DNA of 61,806 nt, taken from Armatimonadota bacterium. GTDB taxonomy: Bacteria; Armatimonadota; Fimbriimonadia; Fimbriimonadales; Fimbriimonadaceae. The notes under the pieces are model-generated. The model was not told the origin of the DNA. It saw only the letters and a list, made by a program, of their open reading frames with translations, and ran no database searches. Shown here piece by piece: positions 4,602 through 51,246 of the stretch. The position numbers and the translations under genes were made by a program. The stretch lies in assembly GCA_025360125.1 (NCBI GenBank), contig JANYCU010000003.1, positions 1-61,806 of the forward strand, written 5' to 3'. How positions within the stretch are numbered: the stretch's first letter is position 1; every line of letters starts with the position of its first letter.

Positions 4602-4769
4602 TGGCAGATTGTCCCGGTGTCGGCCCGACTGCCAAGCCTCTTGTATTGATTTTCCTTAAGCAGACCCTGTTGTGGGAGGGGTTATCTTGTGTGACTCTGC
4701 CGCCAGTGCTGTAGTAAGCCATTGCCGACTTCTTAGGCTGACGGCGATGACAAAGCTCCCTGTAAGATT

Positions 4770-4838
4770 GCAGCGAGACAAGTCTCGCAGGCCAAAGCGC
4801 GAACAGGTTCGCGCACTCCAAGGTCCGCTTCGCGGACG
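4770..4838 (-). repeat. REP-like multi-hairpin element, dispersed copy 1
   Basis: Three hairpins in a row: GCGAGA/TCTCGC (4773-4788), GCGCGAA/TTCGCGC (4797-4814) and GTCCGC/GCGGAC (about 4822-4836). On the minus strand GGAG precedes the second hairpin. The same architecture flanks the transposase at 47527-48051, where the stems have different but self-complementary bases. Confidence 0.75.
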
Positions 4839-5678: not shown

Positions 5679-5797
5679 TTCAGCGAAACAGGTTTCGCAG
5701 TTTGAAAGCGCGAACAGGTTCACCTCAAAAATCCATGCCTTTGTGGCATAGATTTTCAAGGACTCTCACTCCAAGGTTTGCTTCGCGAACGAAGAAA
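5679..5797 (-). repeat. REP-like element, degenerate or interrupted copy 2
   Basis: The first hairpin is intact (GCGAAACAGGTTTCGC, 5683-5698). The second begins like the copy at 4797 but is interrupted by about 45 bases that themselves form an imperfect hairpin (AAAATC...GATTTT). The tail CACTCCAAGG plus hairpin GTTTGC/GCGAAC then resumes. Relative to copy 1 this last stem changed from GTCCGC/GCGGAC, with both sides altered in step. Confidence 0.65.
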
Positions 5798-16568: not shown

Positions 16569-16630
16569 AGAAATCCGGGCGGGACACTTTGAGGACTTCG
16601 TTCCAGCACATGGTAGTGCTTAATTGAATT

Positions 16631-16684
16631 TCAGCAAAGCAGGCTTTGCAGGCCAAAGCGATTGCAGGCAATCGCACTCCCAAA
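16631..16684 (-). repeat. REP-like double hairpin, dispersed copy 3
   Basis: Hairpins GCAAAGCAGGCTTTGC (16633-16648) and GCGATTGCAGGCAATCGC (16658-16675), followed by ACTCCC. The layout and spacing match the elements flanking the transposase at 47527-48051, but stem bases differ on both sides. It lies between the terminator and the end of typA. Confidence 0.8.
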
Positions 16685-40240: not shown

Positions 40241-40694
40241 ATGCCTCAGTCTCTAAGTCGTGTCTTAGTCCATGGTGTGTTCAGTACAAAAAAACAGAGA
40301 ACCCAGCCTATTGCCCGAAATTCAAGATGACCTTTACCGCTACCTCGCAGCTGTGCTCGAGTCGAAAAAGCACTTTCCAATCAAGATTGGGGGATATAAC
40401 GACCATGTCCATATGCTCTTCGGGTTATCGCGAACCATGGCAATTTCCGACACCATAGAATTGGTAAAGGTGTCATCGTCTAAGTGGCTGAAGACGAAGA
40501 CTCCTGAATTGGCTAACTTTAGTTGGCAACTGGGATACGGGATTTTTAGCGTTTCGCCCGAAGATTCTCCAATTATTGTTGACTACATTGAACGGCAGCA
40601 TGAGCATCATGCAGTGGTCTCATTTCAAGATGAACTGCGAAAGCTGTTGACGGAACACAGAATTCCGTTCGATGAGAAGTACCTTTGGGAATGA
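40241..40694 (+). pseudogene. IS200/REP-associated Y1 transposase, frameshifted
   Basis: An HUH single-strand transposase of the Y1 (IS200/TnpA-like) superfamily. The natural start is ATG 40241 (MPQSLSRVLVHGVFST), but a run of seven A at 40288-40294 puts the remainder out of frame; six A would give KNREPSLLPEIQDDLYRYL and a 150-residue protein. The HUH motif is DHVHML, and the catalytic Tyr is in VDYIERQHEHHAVVSF. It ends ten bases before the right inverted repeat. It may be inactive, frameshift-expressed, or subject to a homopolymer read error. Confidence 0.85.
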
Positions 40695-44866: not shown

Positions 44867-46051
44867 GTGTTAACCATACTTTCAGCTATCCATTCACTCC
44901 AACTTCCAATGTTGGATCCAAATATTCAAGTTCCATCAACGTCAGTTATTCGAAACGAAGACTACGGTCTTCGCGCCCATACGAACCACTTGATATTGAC
45001 CGGGCCGTTTAAAGGCACCAACATTGACCCAGACGCGCTCCAAGCCAATACAAGACCAATGGTCTTGGCTCCGTCTGGCTACGGACCAAGTTCAATTCGA
45101 GCTGCTTATAACTTGGCGTCAACTGGTGGATCTGGGGTTCATGCTTGTATCATTGCCTATCATTACAAGAATGCGATGCGCGACTTTAATGTCTTTTCAA
45201 CCCAGTTTGGATTGCCAACCGAAACGTCTTCGAGCCAAATTGCTTCGACCAACTCGGTCTTTCAAGTGGTCTACCAGGGATCATCTGCTCCTTCAACCAA
45301 TACTGGTTGGAACCAAGAAGCTGCACTCGATATCGAGTGGTCACATTCCATGGCTCCGAATGCCAAGATCGTTCTGGTTGAAGCAAATTCTGCTAGTTTT
45401 GCCGACCTCAATGCTGCGGTTACCAAGGCTGGAACTATTCCAGGGGTCCGTTCCATTTCAATGAGCTACGGAGCAACTGAATTTTCTGGAGTAACTGCAT
45501 ACGAGTCAGTCTTTTCCCACGCGGGAATTGTGTACTTCGCGTCTACTGGTGATACTGGTGGTCAACATTCTTGGCCAGCACTCTCGCCAAGCGTTGTTGC
45601 GGTAGGTGGAACAACATTAACTGGGTCTGGGGCATCATGGACTGAAACAACTTGGTCGGGTTCTGGTTGTGGATTGAGCTCGTATTTTAGCCGCCCTTCT
45701 TATCAAAATGGTGTTCAAGCAATTGTTGGAACCATGCGAGGAGCTGCTGACATTTCGGCAGTTGCTGATCCTAACACTGGTTGTGCGGTTTATGCCCCAA
45801 CAAGTTCTCGAAATAGCGGTTGGCTAGTCTTTGGCGGGACCAGCCTTTCTTGCCCAATCATGGCGGGAATCTACAACCTCAGTGGTCAAGCATCAGCCTC
45901 TAGTTCAGCTGAGCTAACCCGAATCTATTCACACCTTGGATCATCTTCGTTCCGGGATGTGGTTAGCGGCTCGGCGGGTGGAAATGTTGCCACCGTGGGA
46001 TATGATCTCGCCAACGGAGTCGGAACTCCGCTTGGATTAAGCGGGTTCTGA
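44867..46051 (+). CDS. Sedolisin (S53) peptidase, tandem copy 1
   Basis: A 394-residue serine-carboxyl peptidase of family S53. The catalytic Glu and Asp are four residues apart in NQEAALDIEW, the oxyanion Asp is in FASTGDTGGQ, and the Ser is in FGGTSLSCP; the C-terminal calcium-site region FRDVVSG ... YDLANGVGTP is present. The usual propeptide of about 180 residues is replaced by about 80 residues of different type (LDPNIQVPSTSVIRNEDYGLRAHTNH). The N-terminal hydrophobic run MLTILSAIHSLQ is short and uncharged, so export is uncertain. Starts at GTG behind a hairpin-covered ribosome-binding site. Codons end in A or T more often than in copy 2. Confidence 0.88.
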   Translation: MLTILSAIHSLQLPMLDPNIQVPSTSVIRNEDYGLRAHTNHLILTGPFKGTNIDPDALQANTRPMVLAPSGYGPSSIRAAYNLASTGGSGVHACIIAYHYKNAMRDFNVFSTQFGLPTETSSSQIASTNSVFQVVYQGSSAPSTNTGWNQEAALDIEWSHSMAPNAKIVLVEANSASFADLNAAVTKAGTIPGVRSISMSYGATEFSGVTAYESVFSHAGIVYFASTGDTGGQHSWPALSPSVVAVGGTTLTGSGASWTETTWSGSGCGLSSYFSRPSYQNGVQAIVGTMRGAADISAVADPNTGCAVYAPTSSRNSGWLVFGGTSLSCPIMAGIYNLSGQASASSSAELTRIYSHLGSSSFRDVVSGSAGGNVATVGYDLANGVGTPLGLSGF

Positions 46052-46058
46052 TACCAGT

Positions 46059-46114
46059 GCAAGTGCGAGAAAGCAGTGCAAGGAAAGAGGCTAAACCATC
46101 TTTCTCGCACTTGC
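46059..46114. repeat. Hairpin repeat between sedolisin genes
   Basis: GCAAGTGCGAGAAAG (46059-46073) pairs perfectly with CTTTCTCGCACTTGC (46100-46114). The AAGTGCGAGAAAG word recurs near 4914-4927. The 15-bp stem could end transcription of the first peptidase gene or be a mobile hairpin element; there is no T run. Confidence 0.6.
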
Positions 46115-46198
46115 CCTCGTACTTGCCCTTTCATTCCTAGCATTTCTCCCTTGTCGATTTTGCGGCCATTTGGGCATAAGCGAGGCAAGGGAAAAACT

Positions 46199-47386
46199 GT
46201 GTTCATATTACTTTCAGCTATTCACGCGATCGAACAAAGTCCTTTGTTCGATCCAAATATTGAAGTTCCATCGTCATCGATCGTCCGCATTGCCGACATC
46301 GGATTTCGAGCTCACACCAACCATATGATCCTGCGGGGTCCGTTCCAGGGCGACATTCTTTATCCAGAGGGTTTGCAGGCTAATCTTTCTGCTCCTGCCT
46401 TTGCACCGTCTGGCTACGGTCCATCGTCGATTCGAGCCGCTTACAATTTGGCTTCGACGGGTGGCTCGGGTGCTCACGCGATCGTTATTGCCTACCATTA
46501 TGCAAATGCCCGGCGAGACTTCAACGTGTTTTCGACGACGTATGGCCTTCCGACTGAGACCTCGACCAATCAGGCCGCGACTTCGAATACGAAATTTCAA
46601 GTGGTGTATCAGGGCACGGCGGCTCCGGCGGGCAACGTCGGTTGGAACCAAGAGGCTGCTCTTGACATCGAGTGGTCCCATGCGATGGCTCCGAACGCAA
46701 AGATCTATTTGGTCGAAGCCAATTCGAACAGCTTTAATGACTTGAATGCTGCGATAAAGAAAGCGGCGGCCATTCCGGGAGTTCGGTCGGTTTCGATGAG
46801 CTTTGGGGCGAGCGAATTCTCGGGAGAAGTCAATTTTGAGTCTGATTTTGCCCAGGCAAACGTGGTCTTCTTCGCATCGACGGGCGATTCGGGTGGACAA
46901 CACTCTTGGCCCGCTCTCTCGCCTAAAGTTGTTGCCGTTGGTGGTACTTCGCTGAAGGGTTCGGGGTCGAGTTGGACCGAGTCAGTCTGGTCGGGATCGG
47001 GCGGAGGTATCAGTTCTTTCTTTAGTCGACCTGCTTATCAAAATGCGGTCCAGACGGTTGTTGGTGCAAAGCGCGGTAGCCCGGATATCTCGGCGGTCGC
47101 CGACCCTAACACGGGTTGTGCGGTGTACGCTCCGACGAGTTCGACATCGAGCGCGTGGATGGTGTTCGGCGGAACGAGTTTGTCTTGCCCCATCATTGCT
47201 GGGATCTATAACCTGAGTGGTCAAACGTCGGCGTCTTCGGGTGCCGAGTTGACTCGGATTTACGGAAATCTGGGGAGTTTGTCTTTCCGGGATGTCACTT
47301 CGGGGTCGTCGGGACCGAATGCGTCGAAAGTCGGTTACGACTTGACGACGGGCGTCGGCACTCCGCTGGGCGTCAGCGGGTTCTAA
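46199..47386 (+). CDS. Sedolisin (S53) peptidase, tandem copy 2
   Basis: A 395-residue paralogue of the preceding gene, starting at GTG 46199, seven bases after AAGGG; the start matches copy 1 (FILLSAIHAIE against LTILSAIHSLQ). Catalytic residues are in NQEAALDIEW, FASTGDSGGQ and FGGTSLSCP. The WSGSGGGISSFFSRPAYQNAV block is closer to the S53 consensus than copy 1's WSGSGCGLSSYF, which has Cys for Gly. The open frame upstream to 46076 is repeat-derived. The pair probably arose by duplication and has diverged in codon choice. Confidence 0.88.
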   Translation: MFILLSAIHAIEQSPLFDPNIEVPSSSIVRIADIGFRAHTNHMILRGPFQGDILYPEGLQANLSAPAFAPSGYGPSSIRAAYNLASTGGSGAHAIVIAYHYANARRDFNVFSTTYGLPTETSTNQAATSNTKFQVVYQGTAAPAGNVGWNQEAALDIEWSHAMAPNAKIYLVEANSNSFNDLNAAIKKAAAIPGVRSVSMSFGASEFSGEVNFESDFAQANVVFFASTGDSGGQHSWPALSPKVVAVGGTSLKGSGSSWTESVWSGSGGGISSFFSRPAYQNAVQTVVGAKRGSPDISAVADPNTGCAVYAPTSSTSSAWMVFGGTSLSCPIIAGIYNLSGQTSASSGAELTRIYGNLGSLSFRDVTSGSSGPNASKVGYDLTTGVGTPLGVSGF

Positions 47387-47463
47387 ATCCGAGAACATTG
47401 GAGAGAGCAAGGGCAATTATTTGTCCTTGACCTCTTTGCATAAAGCTGGAGCTGGTCATTTTT

Positions 47464-47515
47464 GGAGTGCTCAAGCCTGCTTGAGCTTTGGTGCTGCGAA
47501 GCCTGCTTCGCTGAA
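47464..47515 (+). repeat. REP element flanking second RAYT, downstream side
   Basis: GGAG (47464-47467) is followed by hairpin GCTCAAGCCTGCTTGAGC (47469-47486), a TTTGGTG spacer and hairpin GCGAAGCCTGCTTCGC (47496-47511). It is the inverted partner of 48082-48132; GGAG before a palindrome is the classic REP layout. Confidence 0.9.
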
Positions 47516-47526
47516 CGGCACTTCGA

Positions 47527-48051
47527 TCAGAAATCGTCGTCTATTTCAAGCAGATCTGTCTTAAACGATTTCACCGTCTCAACGAACGATTTATCTCCTT
47601 GTGTCTCGAACCAGTGAGCGCTACAAAATGGGTAGTTTAGCGAAGGTCCTAACCCATGTTTCGTTGGATTATTATGAACGTAGTTGAGGCGGGCCAGATA
47701 CGATGTCTCGAAACTAAGCAAGGTGTCCCACATGTTGTACCAAATTCGTCGTCCGGCTTGTCCTTCAAGGCGATTGAGCTTTCGGGCCGAAACTCCGTGA
47801 ATCTTTTCAGTTAGCTTCTTGACTCCTTTTTCAACCGGACAAAACCCGACTATGTGGTAGTGATTTGGAAAGATAGCCCAAGCTTGCAATTCAAAATTGA
47901 ATTCAATACAAGTCACAAAGATCACGGATTGGAGTAGATTCAACTTCTCGTGGGAAGCGAATCGGTGTTGTTTTTGGTAAGTTGCAGCAGTAATGAAGTA
48001 GGTCCCAGGTTCAGTTACCGACCTACTGGGAGCATGGGGCCAGGAGTGCAC
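47527..48051 (-). CDS. REP-associated tyrosine transposase (RAYT)
   Basis: A 174-residue Y1 transposase of the RAYT (TnpA-REP) class, which cuts and moves single-stranded REP hairpins. The HUH motif is WAIFPNHYHIVGF (His-Tyr-His) at about 77-89; the catalytic Tyr lies in YLARLNYVHNNPTKHGLG, matching the family consensus YIHxNPVKxGL. The start TYFITAATYQKQHRF also fits. It is bracketed 12 bases downstream and 31 bases upstream by inverted copies of a two-hairpin GGAG repeat, and three more copies of that repeat lie at 4.77, 5.68 and 16.63 kb. The gene appears intact. Confidence 0.93.
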   Translation of the reverse strand: MHSWPHAPSRSVTEPGTYFITAATYQKQHRFASHEKLNLLQSVIFVTCIEFNFELQAWAIFPNHYHIVGFCPVEKGVKKLTEKIHGVSARKLNRLEGQAGRRIWYNMWDTLLSFETSYLARLNYVHNNPTKHGLGPSLNYPFCSAHWFETQGDKSFVETVKSFKTDLLEIDDDF

Positions 48052-48081
48052 AACCGCATTTTATCCCAGACGCAACTCTTT

Positions 48082-48132
48082 TCAGCGAAGCAGGCTTCGC
48101 AGTACCAAAGCTAACGCAGGCGTTAGCACTCC
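48082..48132 (-). repeat. REP element flanking second RAYT, upstream side
   Basis: Hairpins GCGAAGCAGGCTTCGC (48085-48100) and GCTAACGCAGGCGTTAGC (48110-48127), then ACTCC (GGAG on the minus strand). The first stem is identical to the opposite copy; the second has TAAC/GTTA where the other has TCAA/TTGA, so pairing is preserved. Confidence 0.9.
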
Positions 48133-48141
48133 AAAAAAGAG

Positions 48142-51100
48142 CTAACCCAATTGAGAAGCCAAGAAACCTTCCGCTGCCGCCAGAGCCTCGTCGGCTTTAC
48201 CTGGATCGCGGCCACCCGCCGTGGCGAAGGCAGCCTGTCCGCCACCGCCGCCGCCCGCGATTTTCGCGAGTTCCTTGAGCAGGTTTCCGGCGTGGGCACC
48301 TTTGACTTGGGCTTCGGTGCCGACTTTGCACATGAACGTCACTTTGTCGCTGACCACACAGAGTATCGTGACCTGATTGGGCTTGTTATTCGCTTCGTTG
48401 TCGAGGGCTTGGCTAGCTACCTTGGGGTCGGCATCGCCGAGGTTCTTGACGTAGAAATCGACTCCGTTGACGTTCTTGGTTGCGCTGGTTGCTGCACCGC
48501 CACCGGACATCGCCGCCATTTCGGCTTTCTCGCGCTTCTTGCGCTCGTCCTTCAGTTGGTCGACGGTTCGTTCGACCGCGCTCACGAGCTCTTTTGGATT
48601 CGCTTTTAATAGGCTTGCGGCCTCTTTGATGGCGTTGGAATCGTGCTTAAAGAGGTCGTAGGCGGCTTCGCCCGTGATCGCTTCGATTCGCCGAACACCC
48701 GATGCTGCGGAGCTTTCGCTCACGATCTTGAACAGACCGATTTCGCCCGTCGTTCGGACGTGGATGCCGCCACACAGTTCCTTGCTGAACTCGCCAATTT
48801 CGACCATGCGAACTTTGTCGCCATACTTCTCGCCGAAGAGCGCCATCGCGCCCTTGGCCCTGGCTTCGTCGATCGGTAAATCGACGTAGGTCGTGACGTC
48901 GATATTGGCGAGAATCTCCTCGTTGACCAACTGCTCGACCTCGGCGATTTCGGTCGCGGTCATGCCCTTGCCGTAGGTGAAGTCGAAGCGCAGGTTGTCG
49001 GGTCCGACGTATGACCCGGCTTGGGTGACCGTGGTTCCGAGAACTTGCCGCAGGGCCGCTTGGAGCAGGTGAGTCGCAGTGTGATTTCGCTTGATACGGG
49101 CTCGACGCTTGGCGTCCACAATAGCCTCGACGGGTTTGCCGAGCATCGATTCGACATCGGTTCCGATGACATCGTGCCAGAACGTTCCCGAGCTTTTCGT
49201 CGTATTTTCGACGATGAGCTGGCTACCGTTGACGCGGATTTCGCCGGTATCGCCGGTCTGTCCGCCCGATTCTCCGTAGAACGGCGTTTGGTTGAGCGCG
49301 ACCCGGTATCGACCTTCGCCATTCGCCCGAATGCGAACGAGTTTGGCGCGGGCATGGACGTTTTGGTAGCCAAGGAAGTTGGTCTCTTTCGGAGCGTCGT
49401 CGGTTGCGAGTTCGTCTTCGCTTGACATTCCGCCGTATGCCGATTTCTCGCCTTGGGCTCCGCGTGAACGCTCTTGGGCTTCTTTCATCGCGGTTTCATA
49501 TCCGTCTATGTCGACCTCAAAACCTCGCTCAGTACATATTTCTTCTGTAATCTCTAAAGGGAATCCGAACGTGTCATATAGCTGAAACACTTTGTCACCG
49601 GGCAAAACAAGGCGAAGGGAATTTAATGTTTGGACAGCCGAGTTTGGCTCCAAGTTTCCATATTTTTCAAAGAAAAATTTGCACTTTTCTATAAGGGAAT
49701 TCGCCGCTTCAACAGAGGGGATTTTGCTCTTGAAAAGATCGTAAACGTTAGAGCCTACAAATGAATAGCTAAGAGATTCATAGAACTCACTAAATTTGGG
49801 ATCGTTCGGCAGCTTAAGTTTTCCGTCAGCATCTTGAAATACGTGCCAGAAATAGTTCCGATGTTGCTGTGCATAGTTAAAGGTAACTTCAAGTAGCAGG
49901 TTTTCTAGTAACTCAATTCCTTTGTCAAGCGTTCTTCGGAACAACGCTTCCTCGCTTTGCAACGTTTCTTCAATGATGCTTCTCCGAGCGATGAGTTCTT
50001 TGTAGTGCCCGCCAAACGTGTCGAAGACTGCTTCGGCGACTTCGTGCATAAACAGGTCGTTGAAGCCAAGCACTCGTTGCCCCTTGAGGACGGCACGGCG
50101 AATCAACCGCCGCAGCACGTAGCCACGGCCATTGTTGGCGGGCATGACTCCGTCGGCGATGCAGAAGCAGGAGGTGCGAATGTGGTCGGCGATGATTCGG
50201 CGGGCGGTTTGGGTCTCGGGAGAGTTAATAATTGTAGGTTGATCGATGCGATCGGAGCCTTCCGATGCTCCATCGATCCTCCCCCCCTCCGTCGCGGCAA
50301 AGCCCTCGCGCCACCTCCCCTCAAGTGGAGGAGCTTGGTTGGTGGATGTTGCCGAGTGATTACTTCCAAGTCTGAGCTCGTCGATCTTCGCTAAGATTGG
50401 GAGGAAGGCGTCGGTGTCGTAGACCGAGGATTTGCCTTCGAGGACGGCGACCGTGCGCTCCATTCCCATTCCGGTGTCGATCGATGCGAACGGAAGATCG
50501 GGCATGCCCGACTTCTCCCAGCCATCCGACGGGCGCTCAGGATTTCGGAGTTTGCCTTGCCAATCGAACTGGATGAACACGTCGTTCCAGATCTCGAGCC
50601 AGTTGCGGGCGTCGTCGTCGGCGATCCACTGCTCGCGCGAGTAATCACCCGCCTTGATCCCAGGAACCGTTAAAGGATTCGTCCAGTAGAACATCTCGGA
50701 GTTCGGTCCGCACGGCCCGGGCGAACCCGCGCTTACTGATTTGGGCGGCCAATAGTTGGTCTCTTCGCTCAGGCGCATGATGCGCGTCGATGGATCGATA
50801 CCCGCGGCGGAAATATGTTCGGACCAGCATTGGTACGCGACATCGTCATCTTCGAAAACCGTAAACGAGAGTCTTTTTGGATCCAGTCCGAGCCATTCTG
50901 AACCGGTCAAAAACTCCCAAGAGTATGCGATAGCATCGTCTTTGAAGTAGTCGCCGAACGAGAAGTTGCCGAGCATCTCGAAGAAGGTGAGGTGGCTGTC
51001 GTCGCCGACTTCGTCAATGTCTCCGGTTCGAACGCATTTTTGGGCGGTGACCAGTCGCTTGTTGGGGGGCGTCGCGGTGCCGAGGAAATAGGGCTTGAAC

Positions 51101-51246
51101 TGGATCATTCCCGCGCCGTTGAAGAGCAGGCTTTCATCCAGACGCCCGGTGACGTCGGTGGGGATCAGCGACCCAGAATCATGGATCGTGTGCCCTTTGC
51201 TCTCAAAAAAGCGGAGATATTTCTCTCGCAACTCGCGAACGGTCAT
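48142..51246 (-). CDS. alaS: Alanyl-tRNA synthetase with two insertions
   Basis: The enzyme charges tRNA-Ala. At 1034 residues it is about 150 longer than usual. The class II core begins LREKYLRFFESKGH; the editing domain has the zinc motif HTATHLL and CGGIHV; the C-Ala domain ends GGGGGQAAFATAGG. Two stretches have no counterpart in the family: residues about 293-343 (contains APPLEGRWREGFAATEGG, an in-frame repeat B copy) just before IIADHIRTSCFCIADG, and about 453-545, aromatic, Asn-rich and from AT-rich DNA, between ELLENLLL and LVLPGDKVFQLYDTFGFP. Both lie between standard blocks, so the core looks functional. A CAAAAT lies 6 nt before the ATG. Confidence 0.96.
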   Translation of the reverse strand: MTVRELREKYLRFFESKGHTIHDSGSLIPTDVTGRLDESLLFNGAGMIQFKPYFLGTATPPNKRLVTAQKCVRTGDIDEVGDDSHLTFFEMLGNFSFGDYFKDDAIAYSWEFLTGSEWLGLDPKRLSFTVFEDDDVAYQCWSEHISAAGIDPSTRIMRLSEETNYWPPKSVSAGSPGPCGPNSEMFYWTNPLTVPGIKAGDYSREQWIADDDARNWLEIWNDVFIQFDWQGKLRNPERPSDGWEKSGMPDLPFASIDTGMGMERTVAVLEGKSSVYDTDAFLPILAKIDELRLGSNHSATSTNQAPPLEGRWREGFAATEGGRIDGASEGSDRIDQPTIINSPETQTARRIIADHIRTSCFCIADGVMPANNGRGYVLRRLIRRAVLKGQRVLGFNDLFMHEVAEAVFDTFGGHYKELIARRSIIEETLQSEEALFRRTLDKGIELLENLLLEVTFNYAQQHRNYFWHVFQDADGKLKLPNDPKFSEFYESLSYSFVGSNVYDLFKSKIPSVEAANSLIEKCKFFFEKYGNLEPNSAVQTLNSLRLVLPGDKVFQLYDTFGFPLEITEEICTERGFEVDIDGYETAMKEAQERSRGAQGEKSAYGGMSSEDELATDDAPKETNFLGYQNVHARAKLVRIRANGEGRYRVALNQTPFYGESGGQTGDTGEIRVNGSQLIVENTTKSSGTFWHDVIGTDVESMLGKPVEAIVDAKRRARIKRNHTATHLLQAALRQVLGTTVTQAGSYVGPDNLRFDFTYGKGMTATEIAEVEQLVNEEILANIDVTTYVDLPIDEARAKGAMALFGEKYGDKVRMVEIGEFSKELCGGIHVRTTGEIGLFKIVSESSAASGVRRIEAITGEAAYDLFKHDSNAIKEAASLLKANPKELVSAVERTVDQLKDERKKREKAEMAAMSGGGAATSATKNVNGVDFYVKNLGDADPKVASQALDNEANNKPNQVTILCVVSDKVTFMCKVGTEAQVKGAHAGNLLKELAKIAGGGGGGQAAFATAGGRDPGKADEALAAAEGFLASQLG
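49612..49890 (-). other. AT-rich insertion inside alaS
   Basis: Encodes residues about 453-545 of the synthetase (FNYAQQHRNYFWHVFQDADG onward). Base composition is visibly richer in A and T than the rest of the gene, and the residues (many Phe, Tyr, Asn, Lys) do not match any synthetase domain I know. Possibly a transferred segment or a lineage-specific extension. Confidence 0.55.
50218..50370 (-). repeat. Family B repeat inserted in frame in alaS
   Basis: The segment 50275-50350 aligns with the intergenic copies at 5550-5650 and 5840-5955 (CACCTCCCC, AGTGGAGGAGCTTGG words). In alaS it is translated as part of residues about 293-343, leaving the frame intact on both sides. Confidence 0.7.

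Follow-up and report, generated by a model that had tools for sequence, protein, structure and literature searches.

REP/RAYT systems described so far and the locus in the window

Work on REP/RAYT systems has so far dealt mainly with Proteobacteria and with GTAG heads. TnpA_REP acts on the single-stranded REP and cleaves at a CT near the hairpin. Positions 3 and 4 of the head may select this CT through base pairing, and the group 3 enzymes depend on bases of the loop (PMC8266576). A GT[AG]G head is a feature of most described subclasses and is missing from subclass 2.6 and class 3 (PMC6006769), so that this head is not strictly defining. In the REP/RAYT literature searched, the head described was GT[AG]G, and a description of a GGAG head was not found. 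The direct arrangement of two hairpins is reported to be rare for other REPs.

The window (the whole stretch of DNA analyzed, 61,806 nucleotides) is a contig of a 4.13-Mb draft genome from a Fimbriimonas-type host of the Armatimonadota. Its RAYT gene and the two bracketing repeat units comprise the following features:

47460..47515 (+), left REP unit on the downstream side of the RAYT, with a TTTT-GGAG head at the outer end followed by two hairpins (covariance-model match, 80.2 bits, E 2e-19)
47464..47467 (+), GGAG head of the left unit, from the sequence
47469..47486 (+), outer hairpin of the left unit, GCTCAAG-CCTG-CTTGAGC
47496..47511 (+), inner hairpin of the left unit, GCGAAG-CCTG-CTTCGC, then TG
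47527..48051 (-), RAYT / TnpA_REP gene, 174 aa, GTG start (Y1_Tnp, REP_Tyr_transpos, 4er8 fold)
48081..48136 (-), right REP unit, upstream of the RAYT and opposite in orientation to the left unit (79.8 bits)
48085..48100 (-), inner hairpin of the right unit, GCGAAG-CCTG-CTTCGC
48110..48127 (-), outer hairpin of the right unit, GCTAACG-CCTG-CGTTAGC
48129..48132 (-), GGAG head of the right unit, from the sequence

With a probability of roughly 87%, this locus is a REPtron, i.e. the gene of a REP-associated Y1/HUH tyrosine transposase located between inverted copies of its substrate repeat. The REP/RAYT system as such is of a known kind, and the variant consists of the GGA[G/C/T]T head, the direct two-hairpin unit and the several RAYT loci per genome.

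A sequence-only reading had placed the gene between inverted copies of a double-hairpin element with GGAG beside the outer hairpins. Both statements are borne out, as a 60-nt inverted repeat of 90% complementarity (47456-47515 versus 48081-48140) encloses the RAYT ORF and both GGAG heads form the outer ends of the units. The span of 47464-48132 given there ends at the GGAG, and the full units cover approximately 47460-47515 and 48081-48136. From the outer end, each unit comprises TTT(G/T)-GGAG-T, hairpin 1 (a 7-bp stem with the 4-nt loop CCTG), a TTT-linker, hairpin 2 (a 6-bp stem, again with the loop CCTG) and TG. One stem had been described as identical in both copies and the other as variable yet pairing, which holds true, since the outer stems differ in sequence with pairing kept and the inner hairpin is identical; however, the stem called the first one is actually that of the inner hairpin. 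The same reading had regarded the arrangement as a known recognition layout. This applies to a head adjacent to the hairpin, but not to GGAG as the head, as the window units carry GGAG instead of the canonical GT[AG]G.

The RAYT ORF is neighbored by alaS (48142-51246, -) and by an ORF with its end at 47386. At 44867-46051 and 46076-47386 (+), two similar ORFs of 394 and 436 aa lie side by side, with the motif FGGTSLSCPI as in sedolisin/S53-like peptidases; a Pfam search with the ORF at 46076-47386 gave no match.

Comparison with the described systems

The REPtrons of E. coli (group 2, subclass 2.2) and of S. maltophilia and Marinomonas (group 3, subclass 2.5) show the same Y1 HUH fold as the locus described here, inverted REPs flanking the gene and dispersed intergenic REPs. 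The perfect short stem and the small loop are shared with group 3, and the TTTA loop observed here is also found in the Marinomonas REP_Mb. Compared to these three, the head is GGA[G/C/T]T instead of GT[AG]G, the motif set is NHYH / WY / YVHNNP, the units are direct two-hairpin units and several RAYTs of the same clade occur per genome. By its motifs, the RAYT resembles subclass 2.8 of the Cyanobacteria (PMC6006769), namely in the NHYH HUH, W[YH] and a proline-containing N-terminus (WPHAPS). However, subclass 2.8 comprises YIHYNP and canonical long GT[AG]G REPs, neither of which was found here, where YVHNNP and GGAG-type heads are present.

A likeness to REPINs or BIMEs (inverted REP pairs) is given by four tail-to-tail pairs in the window genome, about 64 nt apart, although the units described here are built from a direct hairpin pair. 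In the relative G011, a BIME-like array of alternating orientation with a period of 198 bp lies near a RAYT (L216, C23:53360-54008). IS200/IS605 elements (IS608, ISDra2) share the HUH/Y1 chemistry, a same-strand hairpin pair and a guide-like tetranucleotide. In contrast to them, the locus shows a weaker fold match, another Y motif than Y---Q and inverted flanking units, and multiple near-identical copies are missing.

The transposase

The RAYT matched Y1_Tnp (Pfam) with 27.7 bits at a cut-off of 23, and NCBIfam NF047646 (REP_Tyr_transpos) with 73.8 bits (E 1.3e-20), which is just below the curated cut-off of 80, a score threshold and no biological feature. Both the HUH motif (H64-Y65-H66) and the catalytic tyrosine (Y124 in RLNYVHNNP) are intact, and the protein thus comprises the HUH and the single catalytic Tyr in a Y-x-x-x-N-P context of a Y1 domain. 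In the alignment of 28 homologues, H66 and Y124 were invariant and H64 was conserved in more than 90%. For the AlphaFold2 model, computed with the 28 homologues as input (mean pLDDT 88), the top Foldseek match was 4er8, the E. coli TnpA_REP with a bound REP hairpin, which is also the only clear sequence match in the PDB. VIA-align resulted in a Z of 17.4 and an rmsd of 2.6 over 157 residues for 4er8, compared to a Z of 10-12 over about 100 residues for the IS200-type IS608/ISDra2. Accordingly, the modeled fold is nearer to TnpA_REP than to TnpA_IS200. A plasmid search for relatives of the RAYT returned distant matches only (<30% identity).

For the E. coli TnpA_REP, Q95, E100, H101 and R104 are reported to read GTAG (PMC6006769). 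In an approximate alignment with a one-residue gap, these residues correspond to Y/F, D, T/S and S/T, so that three of the four GTAG-reading positions differ. This alteration may reflect the different head. The guide-contact positions Q95, H101 and R104, which are changed and conserved in their new state, offer a test of the reading of head and cleavage site. Based on the intact catalytic residues, the purifying selection and the turnover of sites described below, activity of the window RAYT appears plausible.

Dispersed copies of the repeat

The sequence-only reading had proposed a genome search for the two-hairpin pattern with variable stems, with a lack of copies beyond the window as evidence against it. 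Using a covariance model built from 15 aligned copies, 71-76 REP units were found in the window genome (about 71 copies with compensatory stem changes), including the following in the window:

4769..4823 (-), dispersed REP unit, stem GCGCGAA (covariance model, 70.0 bits)
5679..5731 (-), dispersed REP unit, degenerate (covariance model, 48.1 bits)
16630..16684 (-), dispersed REP unit, stem GCGATTG (covariance model, 78.7 bits)

Among the 15 aligned copies, 99.5% of the pair cells pair, with two-sided changes at 8 of 13 pairs. The covariation score of 0.59 was higher than that of every slid structure and compares to 0.20 in shuffles, none of which reached it (0/500). A stem-free pattern with fixed GGAGTGC, fixed GC and a partly fixed loop matched the genome 48 times compared to once for the reversed control, and nearly all of the 48 matches were self-complementary. 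A literature search on GGAGTGCGG found nothing relevant among the papers returned.

The units are depleted from ORFs and mostly intergenic: 18 of 72 were located inside ORFs of at least 150 aa, compared to 77% for positions drawn at random from these loci. Flanking gene pairs were tandem in 29, convergent in 15 and divergent in 5 cases. Of the two placements that the sequence-only reading had proposed to test, the intergenic one was observed and a clustering near the window RAYT was not, and the units are scattered over the contigs of the whole genome.

Immediately 5' of many GGAG units (e.g. L066, L072, L073, L075) a small GNA-loop palindrome was observed (GATCGCGAAGCGATC, GTGCCGCAGGCAC, GATGGCGTAGCCATC), which might represent a target or another family of repeats. 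About 12 units carry the palindrome TGGAGGAACGAAGTTCCCA in place of the left arm of hairpin 2 (L001, L002, L006, L092, L097, L103, L104, L105), sometimes with a further nested hairpin (L096, L098, L108).

Architecture of the two-hairpin unit

In the window genome, 59 of 62 head-bearing hairpins showed a second hairpin 3-16 nt downstream, while 2.9 were expected from shuffled tails. Since these loci had been picked by a two-hairpin model, the 48 matches found on hairpin 1 alone provide a less biased check, and a comparison of coordinates showed that all of them coincide with model matches over positions 1-56. A search for hairpin 2 alone resulted in 41 matches, all inside two-hairpin units. The second hairpin was also present downstream in 27 of 29 cases in the congener G002 and in 12 of 14 in G011.

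The head of hairpin 1 (TTTGGaGTGC) has a similar counterpart in front of hairpin 2 (TTTGGcCTGC), and hairpin 2 therefore looks like a degenerate direct copy of hairpin 1. The loops of the two hairpins agreed in 35 of 45 units (19 expected, maximum of 29 in 10,000 permutations), and the stems matched in none of the 45. Since the two ends of the loop are complementary to each other in almost every loop type (CCTG, CTTG, TTTA, GCTC), the structure may comprise 8 bp with a 2-nt loop. Kissing between the loops of hairpins 1 and 2 was ruled out, as CCTG and CCTG are non-complementary. Just 3' of hairpin 2, a CT is invariant among the aligned copies.

Heads near homologous RAYTs of other phyla

Scanning named genomes revealed RAYT homologues of 38-64% identity in many phyla, among them Chloroflexi, Ignavibacteriales, WOR-3, KSB1, Verrucomicrobia, Lentisphaerae, Planctomycetota, Omnitrophota, Hydrogenedentota, Sumerlaeota and others. 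Of 28 homologous RAYTs, 24 had a hairpin with a GGANTGC head at a distance of up to 400 bp, and such hairpins amounted to 4.2 per kb there compared to 0.23 per kb further out. The heads comprised GGAG (59), GGAC (24) and GGAT (9), and GGA[GCT] as a whole amounted to 4.9 versus 0.75 per kb. GT[AG]G heads showed no enrichment near the same 28 RAYTs (0.55 versus 0.34 per kb). With a clade of another head beside homologous genes in many phyla, the recognition of head and loop becomes comparable by natural variation.

Linkage of RAYT and repeat

The identification as a REP/RAYT unit made from the window stands, although the genome carries six RAYTs of this clade and not one. All six are bracketed by inverted REP units, and one is frameshifted near its N-terminus (C56, 6 kb). 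Elsewhere, the usual number of RAYTs is one. The RAYTs with CCTG loops form one subclade, and those with CTTG/TTTA loops its sister subclade (genomes G000 and G009, the latter of the same genus as the window genome).

The proposed link between REPs and RAYT-bearing genomes was observed with exceptions in both directions. Among 61 relatives, 14 comprised RAYT and REP, 5 RAYT only, 7 REP only and 35 neither (p 2.8e-5, ignoring kinship); within the genus, the association had a p of 0.02, likewise ignoring kinship. In a sample of 251 genomes of the phylum searched with the stem-free pattern, at least 4 REP matches were found in 11 of 22 genomes with a strong RAYT compared to 6 of 229 others (Fisher p ~1e-9, kinship again ignored). 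In three Armatimonadota genomes with 22-45 matching REPs (G017, G145, G195), the search found no RAYT of this clade, and G014, G029, G035 and others contain the RAYT while REPs of this pattern are not abundant in them.

Site turnover and age of the gene-bearing units

At the matching alaS site, G002 also carries a RAYT unit, with different flanking stems: GCGCGAA upstream and GCTAACG downstream, compared to GCTAACG upstream and GCTCAAG downstream in the window. Two further units out of the six are lacking in G002, and at the matching places there the neighboring genes are directly adjacent. A comparison of the joined flanks with G002 gave two unoccupied RAYT sites whose boundary is not base-accurate, since the intergenic DNA is too diverged between species for an exact insertion boundary. 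The other Fimbriimonas species offered no alignable intergenic DNA at the alaS site for an exact empty site, and divergence likewise prevented exact empty sites from being defined at the REP sites in common with G002. One of the units absent from G002 lies downstream of a gene that is also followed by a RAYT in G009, there in the opposite orientation. At least about 4 of approximately 60 compared REP loci share their place with a REP locus of G002, among the G002 loci listed.

Paralogous RAYTs within the window subclade share 65-72% DNA identity, with a dN of 0.15-0.33 and a saturated dS, which indicates that they are old and under purifying selection. The tree hints at a duplication of the window RAYT after speciation, and a syntenic grouping with G002 was not rejected (AU p 0.19). 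Movement of gene-bearing units would agree with these data, as would gain and loss by transfer.

Alternative explanations and proposed mechanism

An ordinary autonomous IS200/IS605 element with double-hairpin ends by chance, whose MITE-like derivatives are the dispersed copies, would account for several gene-bearing units per genome that are missing at matching sites of a congener, and its ends are hairpins, with the same-strand pair recalling a left and a right end. This origin is nevertheless improbable, since fold and sequence are nearest to TnpA_REP and not to TnpA_IS200, the motif is Y-VHNNP compared to Y---Q in IS200 TnpA (PMC6006769), the subclade paralogues are far from near-identical, and the ends are inverted, whereas both end hairpins of IS200/IS605 lie on one strand. 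The location of the copies between tandem or convergent and seldom divergent genes, together with the compensation that preserves the stems, would also suit selected functional RNA or terminator-like elements among which the RAYT was captured without causing their spread. We regard this as very improbable: such elements would not explain why every one of the six RAYTs is bracketed by inverted units, why 24 of 28 homologous RAYTs of other phyla have the same head nearby, why the loop type tracks the RAYT subclade, or why two congeners share few REP sites.

A dead relic, which spread long ago and whose RAYT has since lost its activity or is retained for a different function, is unlikely, but some observations point in this direction. 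RAYTs have been described as domesticated transposases (PMC8266576), identical recent copies are missing, and one of the six genes is frameshifted. On the other hand, the catalytic residues are intact in the non-frameshifted RAYTs, purifying selection is strong, many full-length units have perfect stems, and site turnover compared to G002 is high.

For the preferred REPtron reading, the mechanism is drawn from TnpA_REP of E. coli, S. maltophilia and Marinomonas, so that binding, cleavage and spread are given here by analogy. The RAYT would bind the strand with GGAG and hairpin only if single-stranded, e.g. behind the replication fork, and head and loop would weigh more than the stem sequence. 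It would nick the CT beside the hairpin, with A3G4 of the head, which GGAG retains, thought to guide the choice of the CT. A 5'-phosphotyrosine link and strand transfer would follow, by which the 56-nt double-hairpin units could spread into intergenic DNA. Through the same-strand hairpin pair, a dimer could grip the unit at its two ends, which would resemble a minimal IS200/IS605 left and right end.

As a tentative extension, which is possible but falls short of being probable, these RAYTs would form a distinct subclass over more than 10 phyla with a GGA[G/C/T]T head, the Fimbriimonas two-hairpin unit would be the smallest left-end/right-end single-strand transposon, and gene-bearing units would relocate as well. 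If true, the last point would contradict the view that REPtrons stay put as units. The two-hairpin units and the multiple RAYT loci bear on the question whether REPs and REPtrons transpose.

Other Y1 genes of the genome

The genome holds about 23 Y1 genes from at least four clades. Seven of them are IS200-like (frames of about 141-186 aa, most with an NQxEHH-type Y motif; L026-L032), one of them located in the window at 40284-40598 (+), and each is bracketed by inverted multi-hairpin repeats of 72-117 nt, which resembles the 'TIRYT' arrangement (PMC3733652). L034 and L039 (C56:38719, C56:210558) belong to another RAYT-like clade with perfect inverted palindromic repeats of 26 nt and 22 nt (TAGGAGGTTGGGCGTCCCGCCCTACA; CGCGGGCTTCCAGCCGGCTCTT). 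L035, L036, L038, L040 and L042 comprise a third Y1 clade (SHYLTFSTYHR type) with inverted repeats of 35-97 nt.
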